From assembly GCA_001767455.1 (NCBI GenBank), contig MELC01000023.1:1-41402 (forward strand): DNA of 41,402 bases, given 5' to 3'. The notes beneath the pieces were generated by a model. The model was not told the origin of the DNA, did no database searches, and saw only the letters and a program-made list of their open reading frames with translations. Positions 12,939-18,868 of the stretch are shown here, piece by piece. A program made the translations under genes and the position numbers. This DNA comes from Acidobacteria bacterium RIFCSPLOWO2_12_FULL_66_21. Lineage in GTDB: Bacteria > Acidobacteriota > Vicinamibacteria > Vicinamibacterales > 2-12-FULL-66-21. Within the stretch, counting starts at the first letter, position 1, and every line of letters begins with the position of its first letter.

Positions 12939-13034
12939 ACCACGGAAGAACACGGCTCTCTTCACCACGGAAAAACACAAAAGAACACGGAATTGCATTA
13001 GTCAGTTCGGTGTTGTTCCGTGTCCTTCCGTGGT
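12939..13034. repeat. CACGGAA inverted repeat overlapping the methylase 3' end
   Basis: ACCACGGAAGAACACGG (12939-12955) matches the complement of 13018-13034 at 16 of 17 bases. A second partial copy, ACCACGGAAAAACAC, lies at 12964-12978. The right arm lies within the last codons of the methylase gene and encodes its VTTEGHGT tail. The words resemble the CACGGAG element at 3978-4272. Confidence 0.8.
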
Positions 13035-16340: not shown

Positions 16341-18868
16341 GGCGGAGGACCACCGGGCGAAAACAGGATCGCGACCAGGTCGAGGCGCGGCACCAGGGCA
16401 CGCCTGCCTCCAAGGGCCGCCACACGCCGCTCCGATTCGCCGGTCGTGACTTGCGCCCGCAGTTGCCGGGCCGTGCGAGCACGGATCGCGCGATCGTCGA
16501 AGAGCGCTGGCTGCAGCGGTCCCGCTACGCCCTGGTTCAGAAGCGAGGCCGTCGCCACCTCCCGCGCCTCCAGAGTGGACGCCGCGCGGCCGGCGAGCTC
16601 ACTGACTGCCCGCAGGCGCGGCTCGAGCCAGTCACGCACCGCCGATCTCAGCGCCGGCTCACTTGCCAGAAACGACCTCGCGTCGGCGCGCGCGCGTCGT
16701 GCGGTCGGCGGCACGCGGCCGGCCCGGCGGACCCCCACCGCGATCAGTTCTTCGTGAAGAACGCTCGCTCCTGCCGCACCGATCCGGGCCCTGTAAATGC
16801 AGGTGATCGCGCTCGATCGGGTGGAGCGGCGCCGGCCGACGGCGCTGACGGCGATCGCCTTCGGGAGCGCTGCGCCCCGCTCGGCCTTCAGCCACACCCG
16901 GCACGTCAGCCGCCGCACCTCGACCTTCGCCTCAGCCGTCAATTCAGCCGGAGGCGCGTTGGCGGGTGACGAGGGCCTGAACGCCTCTTCCGGCAGTGCC
17001 GTTCCGTCGAGAATGGCCCCCGCGACGAGCGACTCCGTGATCAACGTGAACGTCGATCCCTGTCCGAGCCTTGCGCGGCGTGCATTGGCTGCGCGACGGA
17101 CGAGCGCCGCGAGCACGAGTCGTTCGGCGGTGTCGTCCGCCACGAGCGCCATCTCGTGAACGCGCCGTGCCTGCCCGATACGATCGACCCGGCCGGCCCG
17201 CTGTTCGAGCCGCGCGGGATTCCACGGCAGCTCGTAGTGCACGATGGTCCGGCAGCACGCGTGGAGATTCAGTCCCTCGGCCGCCGCGTCGGTTGCGAGG
17301 AGCAGGCCCCCGCCGGCATTGAACGCCCGCTGCGCGGCGGCGCGATCGGCGAGCGACAGGCCGCCGTGCATCAACACCATCGGCCGCCCCGTGCGCGCGA
17401 GAATGCTCGCCAGCCGCGCGAGGGTGTCCCGGTATTCCGTGAAGACGATCGCGGGCTCGGTCATTCGCGCCAGCAACCGGAGAAGAAACGCCACCTTCGA
17501 CTCGGCGGCCGCGGCCTGTTGCGCGGCCTCCCCGATTTGAGCAAGGAACCGGCCCTCACGATCGGGATCCGCCAGGCCGGGCGCCGCAAGGACGGCGTCC
17601 GGCTGCGCGTCGGGGGGCGGATCCTCGCCGTCGAGCGGGAGGGCCAGCTGTCGAGGGTCTCCCGCACCTTCCGCGGCGCGCCCCGCGAGCAGCTCGGCCC
17701 GGCGGGCCACCGACACGAGCAGCGACGCGGCGCTCGACAGGGCGCGCTTCCTGAGAACCATGATCGCCAGACGCGCGCCCGCATCGCGCCTGGCTGCCGC
17801 TTCCCGACAGACGCACGCCGCGTAACGATCGAGAAGACGGTGCATGCGCTGCTCGGAAGGTGTCGGCGTCACACGCAGAATGGCCGTGCGACGGGAGGGC
17901 AGTTCATTCAGCTCGCCGCGCGAACGGCAGAAGATCGTGACGGGCGGATCGCCGTCACGCCGCCCGAGGCCACAGAGCGTGTCGAATTGCGCCGCGTCGC
18001 CGCCATGCGGAGTCGCTGTCAGCAGCACGACGGCGCGCGACCGGACGGCGACGGCATGGACCGCCGTCCGCCGCGCCGTTCCAAATCCGACGGCATGCGC
18101 TTCGTCGACAGCCACGACGTCCCATGCGAGATCCTCGAGCGTCCGCAGCACTTCGGGCTGCTTCAGAAAATCAACCGACGTGAGGTAGATGCCAGGCAAT
18201 CCCCACGGATTCACCTCCGGCGGCAGCTCGCGCGCCGTCCGCGCCAGCCACGCGGCGTCGGCGACGATGGCGTCCAGCCCGAAGTGGCGGGCGAGCTCGC
18301 TCGACCACTGACGGCGCAGGCCGGCGGGCACGACGACGAGGCCGCGGGCCTCGTCGTCGCGCGACGCGATCTCGCTCAGGATGAGGCCGGCCTGGATGGT
18401 CTTGCCGAGGCCGACGCCGTCGGCGATGAGCAGGCGCGTGATGCCGTGCCGAAACAGCGCCAGCGCCGGCTCGAGCTGATACGAAAGCAGGTTGATGCTG
18501 CCGGTTGCGCCGGCCGACATGCCGCCGAATGGAGTCGCGCGAAGCGCCGCTCGTTGCAGCTCGTGCAGCCATCGGCGCGGCCTGAGCACATGCACGGCGG
18601 CGGGAGAGTCGAGGCGACGGGGCCGGTCGAATGGCGTCAGGATCGTGCGCGACGACCCGTAGTTGCTCCGCCCGGCGCCAATGAGCCCGAGGAGCTCACA
18701 ATCCCCGTACCGCACCTGCCTATCGACCGTCCATGTCTCGCCGCGCACGGCGATCGACTCCCCGCGCAGGTCGCGGGCCTCACCGTTTTCGGGATCCACG
18801 CGTTCGTGTGATGGCAACGGCAATGCCGCCCCCCGGCGTACACGGTGGCGGCGGGCAGGCGGCGGCAA
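16337..18868 (-). CDS. SNF2/RapA-type superfamily 2 helicase (DrmD-like)
   Basis: About 843 residues from TTG 18868; GTG 18799 is an alternative, as neither has a clear ribosome binding site and the conserved part starts near GESIAVRGETWTV. Helicase motifs are complete: DGVGLGKTIQAGLI (Walker A, 151-157), VDEAH (254-258), LLTATPHGG, IVFTEYRDTL, LLATDAAAEGLNLH and EQRAGRVDRIGQ. The protein should be an ATP-driven DNA translocase. The C-terminal third is basic and of unclear fold. It forms a coupled operon with the adenine methylase downstream, an association known from restriction-like defence such as class 1 DISARM (drmD-drmMI). Other known components are not seen nearby, so this may be a minimal two-gene system or a remnant. 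Function is inferred from family and context. Confidence 0.88.
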   Translation of the reverse strand: MPPPARRHRVRRGAALPLPSHERVDPENGEARDLRGESIAVRGETWTVDRQVRYGDCELLGLIGAGRSNYGSSRTILTPFDRPRRLDSPAAVHVLRPRRWLHELQRAALRATPFGGMSAGATGSINLLSYQLEPALALFRHGITRLLIADGVGLGKTIQAGLILSEIASRDDEARGLVVVPAGLRRQWSSELARHFGLDAIVADAAWLARTARELPPEVNPWGLPGIYLTSVDFLKQPEVLRTLEDLAWDVVAVDEAHAVGFGTARRTAVHAVAVRSRAVVLLTATPHGGDAAQFDTLCGLGRRDGDPPVTIFCRSRGELNELPSRRTAILRVTPTPSEQRMHRLLDRYAACVCREAAARRDAGARLAIMVLRKRALSSAASLLVSVARRAELLAGRAAEGAGDPRQLALPLDGEDPPPDAQPDAVLAAPGLADPDREGRFLAQIGEAAQQAAAAESKVAFLLRLLARMTEPAIVFTEYRDTLARLASILARTGRPMVLMHGGLSLADRAAAQRAFNAGGGLLLATDAAAEGLNLHACCRTIVHYELPWNPARLEQRAGRVDRIGQARRVHEMALVADDTAERLVLAALVRRAANARRARLGQGSTFTLITESLVAGAILDGTALPEEAFRPSSPANAPPAELTAEAKVEVRRLTCRVWLKAERGAALPKAIAVSAVGRRRSTRSSAITCIYRARIGAAGASVLHEELIAVGVRRAGRVPPTARRARADARSFLASEPALRSAVRDWLEPRLRAVSELAGRAASTLEAREVATASLLNQGVAGPLQPALFDDRAIRARTARQLRAQVTTGESERRVAALGGRRALVPRLDLVAILFSPGGPPP

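Follow-up and report, generated by a model that had tools for sequence, protein, structure and literature searches.

Neighbouring helicase and DNA methylase genes have been described within larger defence systems that consist of many genes and spread from one genome to another. In class 1 DISARM, for instance, a drmD-drmMI pair is accompanied by drmA, drmB and drmC. Adenine methylases that act as orphans provide a different precedent, represented by CcrM, Dam and CamA, the conserved orphan adenine methylase of Clostridioides difficile. The present analysis concerns a two-gene helicase-methylase pair on contig MELC01000023.1 of Acidobacteria bacterium RIFCSPLOWO2_12_FULL_66_21 (order Vicinamibacterales), a draft genome of 6.5 Mb in 91 contigs; "the window" denotes the whole stretch analysed, positions 1 to 41,402. 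The closest described system is ARMADA, which comprises the RapA-like ArmA, the PglX-like ArmB and the YprA-like ArmC with a nuclease, type II adding ArmD; type II protected Escherichia coli, all four genes being required in the system tested (PMC12458937). Bacillus subtilis has DnmA, a nuclease-less MmeI-like N6-methyladenine (m6A) methylase that is encoded beside the helicase gene YeeB and methylates GACGAG; the cluster gave no protection against the phages tested and a role as orphan methylase was proposed (PMC9973331, PMC7261158). The components of DISARM used for comparison were taken from PMC9142583.

The pair in the window may represent a vertically inherited m6A machine of fixed specificity that has no nuclease of its own and serves the host chromosome, a reading which we favour tentatively and to which we assign slightly less than an even chance. 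Judged from the sequence, both genes retain their catalytic motifs (ATP hydrolysis and N6-adenine methylation, respectively), the nuclease domain of the ancestor is present without its catalytic residues, and the recognition region is nearly fixed across the order. The features of the two genes are as follows.

16337..18868, minus strand: RapA/SNF2-type helicase (DrmD/BrxHII/ArmA-like), 843 amino acids, TTG start, from the open reading frame and Pfam and profile matches
13002..16340, minus strand: Eco57I/PglX-type N6-adenine DNA methylase (DrmMI/ArmB-like), 1112 amino acids, ATG start
16337..16340, minus strand: ATGA, in which the stop codon of the helicase gene and the start codon of the methylase gene overlap, read in the sequence
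18398..18421, minus strand: helicase Walker A region, residues 150-157 (D150, V152, G153, G155, K156 and T157 invariant in 14 orthologues)
18095..18106, minus strand: helicase DEAH box, residues 255-258 (D255, E256 and H258 invariant in 14 orthologues)
17180..17203, minus strand: helicase motif VI QRxGRxDR, residues 556-563 (Q556, R557, G559, R560, D562 and R563 invariant in 14 orthologues)
13941..15185, minus strand: methylase catalytic core, residues 386-800, from Pfam, the orthologue alignment and the structure model
15039..15059, minus strand: methylase S-adenosylmethionine (SAM)-binding motif I DPAMGSG, residues 428-434 (D428, P429, M431, G432 and S433 invariant in 15 orthologues)
14262..14273, minus strand: methylase motif IV NPPW, residues 690-693 (invariant in 15 orthologues)
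15861..16175, minus strand: degenerate PD-(D/E)xK nuclease domain of the methylase, about residues 56-160, from the alignment and the helix-sheet pattern of the model
16043-16023, minus strand: position of the [D/E]xK motif in the methylase, occupied by LLVTPWG, residues 100-106, from the alignment
13146..13733, minus strand: target-recognition region of the methylase, about residues 870-1065, unusually conserved; the C-terminal region of CamA aligns up to residue 1065

An earlier sequence-only reading of this DNA had described a helicase gene overlapping that of a 1112-residue methylase by ATGA, and had pointed out SAM and NPPW motifs in the latter. Both open reading frames and the overlap were found as described, and the two motifs are invariant or nearly so in the 15 aligned methylases, with a spacing of 248-264 residues between motif I and NPPW in 21 orthologues. 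The exact 4-base overlap recurs in 18 of 38 loci of relatives, start codons having been chosen by rule. In the helicase the Pfam domains SNF2-rel_dom and Helicase_C were detected, in the methylase Eco57I and N6_Mtase. Matches in PADLOC and NCBIfam put the pair near DrmD, BrxH and DrmMI: the helicase matched the PADLOC DrmD profile with an E-value of 5.1e-78 and the BrxHII profile with 1.3e-63, and the top DrmMI match of the methylase has its best stretch over residues 374-751. The similarity to drmD and drmMI noted in the sequence-only reading is seen in these matches; with the DrmD equivalog NF038317 the helicase reached 293.9 bits, far below the curated cut-off of 610 bits. A search for a sigma-70-like promoter site of the pair found none, from which we conclude nothing.

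The methylase was modelled with a mean predicted local distance difference test score (pLDDT) of 89.3 and a predicted template modelling score of 0.90. Among solved structures Foldseek ranked BrxX/PglX first and CamA next, with MmeI further down. In VIA-align CamA came out on top (Z 26.2, residues 356-1065), ahead of BrxX (Z 25.7, residues 194-1080) and the type ISP enzyme LlaBIII (Z 24.9); the alignment with DrdV (Z 23.8, root-mean-square deviation 10.9) spans residues 35-1064, residues 1-194 being spanned by few rows. The AlphaFold model of the helicase is of moderate quality (mean pLDDT 75.6), and its best solved match is E. coli RapA (6bog), which is also its best match in sequence.

The N-terminus of the methylase, which had been taken in the sequence-only reading for nuclease-related but devoid of clear catalytic residues, is indeed a degenerate nuclease domain. 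The aligned [D/E]xK motif occurs in none of 22 orthologues, 21 DISARM/ARMADA rows and five sister rows of the methylase tree, and in all 54 type IIG relatives; these counts cover 102 of the 106 tree rows, four having been dropped for too short an N-terminus. A loose ungapped nuclease pattern was seen in one of the 21 DISARM/ARMADA rows, and none in the aligned columns. An identity as a type IIG enzyme was ruled out on the loss of this motif. On the former nuclease side, residues 81-240 of the order's proteins are less conserved in sliding windows than those of all three groups used for comparison below.

The opposite end of the protein is the part that is unusually conserved. We compared the recognition region (residues 870-1030) with the core (residues 386-800), limits which were set by us and are consistent with the CamA alignment. 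The ratio of recognition-region to core identity is 1.01 within the order, 0.69 in the DISARM/ARMADA I group, 0.47 in haloarchaeal type IIG enzymes and 0.88 in proteobacterial/Chloroflexi type IIG enzymes. At a core identity of 0.5-0.6, the mean identity of the recognition region amounts to 0.54 within the order, compared with 0.39, 0.25 and 0.46, respectively, in the other groups.

Both genes are, by the measure of their substitution rates, under purifying selection. In same-genus comparisons (10 partly overlapping pairs, with the synonymous rate dS near saturation in most) the ratio of non-synonymous to synonymous substitutions (dN/dS) was 0.18-0.34 in the methylase gene and higher, at 0.24-0.43, in the helicase gene. 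The faster evolution of the helicase would suit the relic of a system resembling ARMADA or DISARM whose methylase alone has kept its importance. This has been proposed for DnmA with YeeB, itself a case of a nuclease-less methylase beside a helicase that gave no protection against the phages tested (PMC9973331, PMC7261158). The helicase frame is moreover broken in two of the 38 loci (L040 and L044). We nevertheless consider such a relic unlikely: the helicase motor region is under purifying selection (dN/dS 0.16-0.37), its ATPase motifs are invariant in the 14 aligned orthologues, and the helicase gene lies directly upstream of the methylase gene in 37 of the 38 neighbourhoods, the contig ending at that point in the 38th. 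The methylase frame is broken in two further loci (L037 and L056), and the helicase frame of L051 is intact with 754 residues. Broken frames in relatives, which if frequent would have marked a remnant according to the sequence-only reading, do occur by frameshift or in-frame stop in 4/38 loci; in draft genomes, as most of the relatives are, decay and assembly error are indistinguishable.

Strong methylase matches (profile search, E-value at most 1e-120) were obtained in 72 of the 106 genomes analysed, all from this order and at least 90% complete; the matches are distributed over ten families. A separate search of 60 relatives gave matches in 49, of which 46 were strong (E-value below 1e-100), with no strong match in the four genomes of family f15 and the five of family f9. 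In the same 60 genomes DrmB was detected in 4, HsdR_N in 25, PglZ in 5 and the RpoB domain in 43. Since even the RpoB domain was found in only 43/60, the draft assemblies impose a ceiling on detection, and the methylase attains it. Within a phylum-wide sample of 247 genomes, 26 methylase matches were found at an E-value of at most 1e-80; the 18 from the order each scored at least 915 bits, the eight others 272-358 bits. The distances between the methylases are correlated with those between RpoB sequences (rank correlation 0.69, 21 genomes), as are those of the helicases (0.69, 19 genomes), and helicase and methylase distances with each other (0.90), all three values lying above all of 1999 permutations. 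The best 25 of 393 matching plasmids, out of 72,556 searched, included none above 32.0% identity to the methylase. One locus (L097) stems from a record titled Acidimicrobiia bacterium and contains the pair, its methylase falling inside the acidobacterial clade; a mislabelled bin, a contamination or a rare transfer may account for it.

The chromosomal surroundings suggest an ancestral gene order HisK - HU - QueF - Smr - helicase - methylase - (NrfD/Fe-S, molybdopterin oxidoreductase, GAF) - TauE - PanE. Among 39 loci (the 38 neighbourhoods and the window), 17 have QueF on the upstream side; on the downstream side TauE or PanE occurs in 25, and one or more of the redox genes in 14. Conserved anchors, one or several, are present in 36/39 loci, the gene at 18988-20274 of the window being counted as an anchor, and the three anchor-free loci include two contigs under 8 kb. 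In the window the following neighbours, all context outside the system, were identified.

5667..6698, plus strand: gene of the TauE/SafE family, located downstream of the pair and used as a synteny anchor (recurrent cluster c3)
4284..5228, plus strand: ketopantoate reductase (PanE) gene, synteny anchor (recurrent cluster c2)
7348-12943: redox operon directly downstream of the pair, encoding an NrfD/Fe-S protein (530 amino acids), a molybdopterin oxidoreductase (954 amino acids) and a GAF protein (358 amino acids)
18988-20274: conserved gene without Pfam match, on the upstream side in the window's own family
22430-23284: RcpC, Flp/Tad pilus gene
23305-25284: secretin, Flp/Tad pilus gene

Upstream of the pair (18988-27718), members of the window's own family have Flp/Tad pilus genes (RcpC, secretin, prepilin peptidase, TadE) in place of HU-QueF-Smr. 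The redox operon and Tad locus named as neighbours in the sequence-only reading were both recovered. Of 14 genomes lacking the pair, 13 loci around QueF were compared, G039 being left out for its weak QueF match. HU lies beside QueF and no intact pair is present in 13/13 of these loci, and PanE follows within about 6 kb in five. In one of them (L231, about 9077-9429) a frameshifted helicase remnant of approximately 90 residues persists next to QueF, which shows that the pair disappeared from exactly this site. A connection of the pair to QueF and 7-deazaguanine DNA modification, considered as the helicase also matches DpdE, was dropped because QueF is retained equally where the pair is absent. 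Besides the pair, 38 gene clusters recur in at least three of the 39 loci; with one representative of each scanned, 34 were named by Pfam and four (c11, c16, c17, c36) had no match. The named clusters comprise genes for metabolism, transport, peptidases, pili and housekeeping functions, the sole exception being a PDDEXK_3-family gene; a phospholipase D of the DrmC type was not among these 34, a negative confined to the neighbour clusters as the host genome was not searched with a DrmC profile. The conserved chromosomal address in most sampled members of the order suggests a stable task for the host rather than membership of a mobile defence island.

Apart from its minimal, undescribed system, the sequence-only reading had offered a DISARM remnant as explanation. 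In a tree of 106 methylases (L094, L096 and L098, contigs of loci already included, and the partial L100 were left out) the 22 sequences of the order form a single clade (support 100) outside a clade of 21 rows (support 100), which was labelled DISARM class 1/ARMADA I because 18 of its loci hold a YprA gene, three of these also DrmB. The same position outside the DISARM class 1/ARMADA I clade was obtained in three trees. An approximately unbiased (AU) test on residues 200-1090 rejected a joint clade of the order's and the DISARM/ARMADA methylases (p 3.2e-5). With the N-terminus included (L235 ignored for its wrong 268-residue frame) the two groups became sisters with 91% support. A single origin of all helicase-paired methylases was rejected in an AU test on residues 200-1090 (p 9e-45), but the nuclease-dead rows group together at 91% support once the N-terminus is included. 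On the phylogenetic evidence the pair did not arise from within DISARM/ARMADA I, and pairing with a helicase and loss of the nuclease may have taken place once or twice. Given this phylogeny, the absence of DrmB, which only the 4/60 relatives mentioned above encode, the conserved order-wide site and the purifying selection, a DISARM remnant is not supported.

The nearest methylases outside the order belong to Verrucosispora (L101), Acetobacteraceae (L172), Thermogemmatispora (L116) and Anaerolineales (L113). In the acetobacterial locus the pair occurs without YprA within its 19 kb, and it is patchy, being present in 3/120 genomes of its family. Verrucosispora sioxanthis (L101, 4471-16393) encodes an ARMADA-like set of a RapA-like helicase, a nuclease-dead methylase and then a 1651-residue YprA-like helicase with MZB and DUF559 domains. 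An ARMADA I-like operon consisting of a 1739-residue DEAD/DEAH helicase, a 964-residue helicase and a 1311-residue methylase was seen on the 29 kb plasmid p5-AD3 of Roseomonas mucosa (L236, 1501-13546), whose methylase groups within the DISARM/ARMADA I clade. On a megaplasmid of Acidithiobacillus caldus (L237, 6385-13450) an annotated Phd/VapC toxin-antitoxin pair lies between the helicase and methylase genes of an ARMADA-like set.

A search with phmmer using four YprA queries and one DrmB query found neither protein in the window, in L063, which covers the 20 kb beyond it, or in any of the 38 neighbourhoods. The YprA queries matched 20 outgroup loci, four of them being the query sources, with proteins of at least 1115 residues, some cut by the locus edge. 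DrmB likewise had no match in the host genome; it was found in 13 of 47 searched genomes of outside methylase relatives (48 of 80 loci having been selected) at an E-value of at most 0.001, in eight of them over the cut-off. Many of the single outside methylases are therefore unrelated to DISARM. The absence of drmA and drmB from the vicinity, one of the starting points of the sequence-only reading, is confirmed by these searches, and the two genes are conserved together in related genomes, a point that it had proposed to check. The pair is, on this comparison of genomes, a widespread two-gene unit of one order and not a local remnant, in keeping with the minimal, undescribed modification or defence system initially envisaged; that reading had missed that the synteny extends across the order, that the recognition region is fixed and that ARMADA is the closer relative.

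Several observations weigh against a role in the service of the host chromosome. No strong methylase match was obtained in 34/106 genomes of the order. The presence and absence of the pair on an RpoB tree of 30 genomes requires five changes, compared with 6.4 for shuffled labels, a number as low being reached in 55/500 shuffles; these five changes mean several losses, or some transfers, of the pair. The contrast in the recognition region with the proteobacterial/Chloroflexi type IIG group (0.54 vs 0.46) is modest in the aligned sequences. PglX of BREX is free of a nuclease and yet serves defence. The helicase-methylase relatives that we met in print with experimental tests are either defence systems (ARMADA, DISARM) or a suspected relic (the DnmA cluster), and Vibrio homologues of the latter altered phage sensitivity (PMC9973331). 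An unlinked protein of the YprA/MrfA family (MZB) is encoded in 50/60 relatives including the host, where it is an open frame of 894 residues. Finally, a PDDEXK_3-family gene (PD-(D/E)xK nuclease superfamily, 125-146 residues) directly follows the methylase gene in three of the 38 neighbourhoods, at distances of +37 (L038), -4 (L046) and -50 (L049). The genes of this family were located as follows.

L038, 6693-7070: PDDEXK_3-family gene
L046, 6424-6864, minus strand: PDDEXK_3-family gene
L049, 4023-4454, minus strand: PDDEXK_3-family gene
L095, about 4777-5178: PDDEXK_3-family gene, likewise after the methylase (L099 and L046 are one contig)

These genes could point to a restriction-modification system with a separate nuclease, encoded beside the pair in a few members and unlinked in the host. 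The type IIG ancestry of the methylase and the combination of motor and methylase in type ISP enzymes such as LlaBIII would agree with it. No PDDEXK_3 match was found beside the pair in the window, in L063 or in the remaining 35 neighbourhoods, however, and the clade has lost its own nuclease motif throughout, so that we regard this explanation as quite improbable. Small genes of the PDDEXK_3 type are presumably common and mobile in these genomes. Going by gene content, the unit of the host has no linked nuclease, and a few relatives may have a PDDEXK_3 protein as nuclease partner.

The main rival is a core-genome anti-phage system, in which the methylase would mark self and the motor would act on unmarked phage DNA as in BREX or ARMADA. 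The motor might stop replication or rely on an effector, for which the unlinked YprA-family helicase and, where it is encoded, the PDDEXK_3 protein would be candidates. We rate it as possible, if on the doubtful side. The profile matches to DrmD, BrxH and DrmMI, the first rank of BREX PglX/BrxX in the Foldseek search, the MZB proteins and the PDDEXK_3 genes described above all speak for it, as does the dependence of ARMADA type II protection of E. coli on RapA-like and PglX-like proteins (PMC12458937). The fixed site, the largely vertical spread and the conserved recognition region would, on the other hand, be unusual for a system engaged in an arms race, and the tested ARMADA needs a linked YprA (same source), which the pair lacks in all loci searched. 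Most of the unlinked MZB genes furthermore lie in open frames of 700-1030 residues, about the size of MrfA. A role of the unlinked YprA-family protein in trans may nevertheless exist.

Under the reading of a host-serving m6A machine, the RapA-like motor and the PglX/CamA-like methylase would form a complex, and the methylase would mark one fixed sequence throughout the genome. The motor might travel along the DNA or clear RNA polymerase or other proteins, so that sites are found or kept methylated. Following the precedent of the orphan methylases, the machine would regulate genes or maintain the chromosome and would not cut foreign DNA. Somewhat less securely still, we propose that a RapA-like motor and a methylase of fixed specificity from DISARM/ARMADA stock were domesticated into a core epigenetic machine across most of the order. 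If so, we would know of no earlier conserved orphan methylation system with a need for a dedicated DNA motor of its own, and a two-gene version staying largely at one address would show that a defence module can turn into household machinery. The same m6A motif should then be found in distant members of the order and be missing in those with an empty site. Should the pair instead serve immunity as part of the core genome, its stability would be unusual for such a system, and it would caution that a pair of this kind is labelled as partial DISARM in profile searches. The literature searched contained no account of this pair in Acidobacteriota, which says little as part of the search was swamped by papers on RNA m6A.

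In comparison with the known systems, the pair shares with ARMADA the succession of a RapA/BrxHII-like helicase and a PglX-like methylase with NPPW motif. It differs in having no linked YprA, which in ARMADA carries a C-terminal Vsr-type nuclease and is joined in type II by a GajB-like protein; in its largely fixed site, as opposed to the mobile defence islands of the tested systems; and in the spacing of its methylase motifs, which is 366 residues (G605-N971) in type II ArmB, by the residue numbers in PMC12458937, and 248-264 in the order. With class 1 DISARM it has in common the drmD-like and drmMI-like genes and a methylase without nuclease motif, as is likewise found in the DISARM/ARMADA I methylases, whereas the host lacks DrmB and a linked DrmA/YprA-type helicase, the methylase falls outside the DrmMI clade and the DrmD score is below the cut-off. 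BREX was ruled out by its marker PglZ, absent from the host and present in 5/60 relatives, while its PglX/BrxX has a similar fold over residues 194-1080.

CamA shares with the methylase the fold of catalytic core and recognition region as well as conservation across a lineage, and it is not known to have a helicase partner or an N-terminal ex-nuclease domain. The lineage-wide, largely vertical conservation that characterises orphan methylases such as CamA, CcrM and Dam was also found for the methylase of the order. The closest case of such a methylase taken to act as an orphan is DnmA-YeeB-YeeC, which resembles the pair in combining a nuclease-less m6A methylase with a neighbouring superfamily II helicase; that cluster includes a third gene with a T5orf172/GIY-YIG-type domain and is likely an acquired island (PMC9973331, PMC7261158), whereas the pair consists of two genes at a largely fixed ancestral site.

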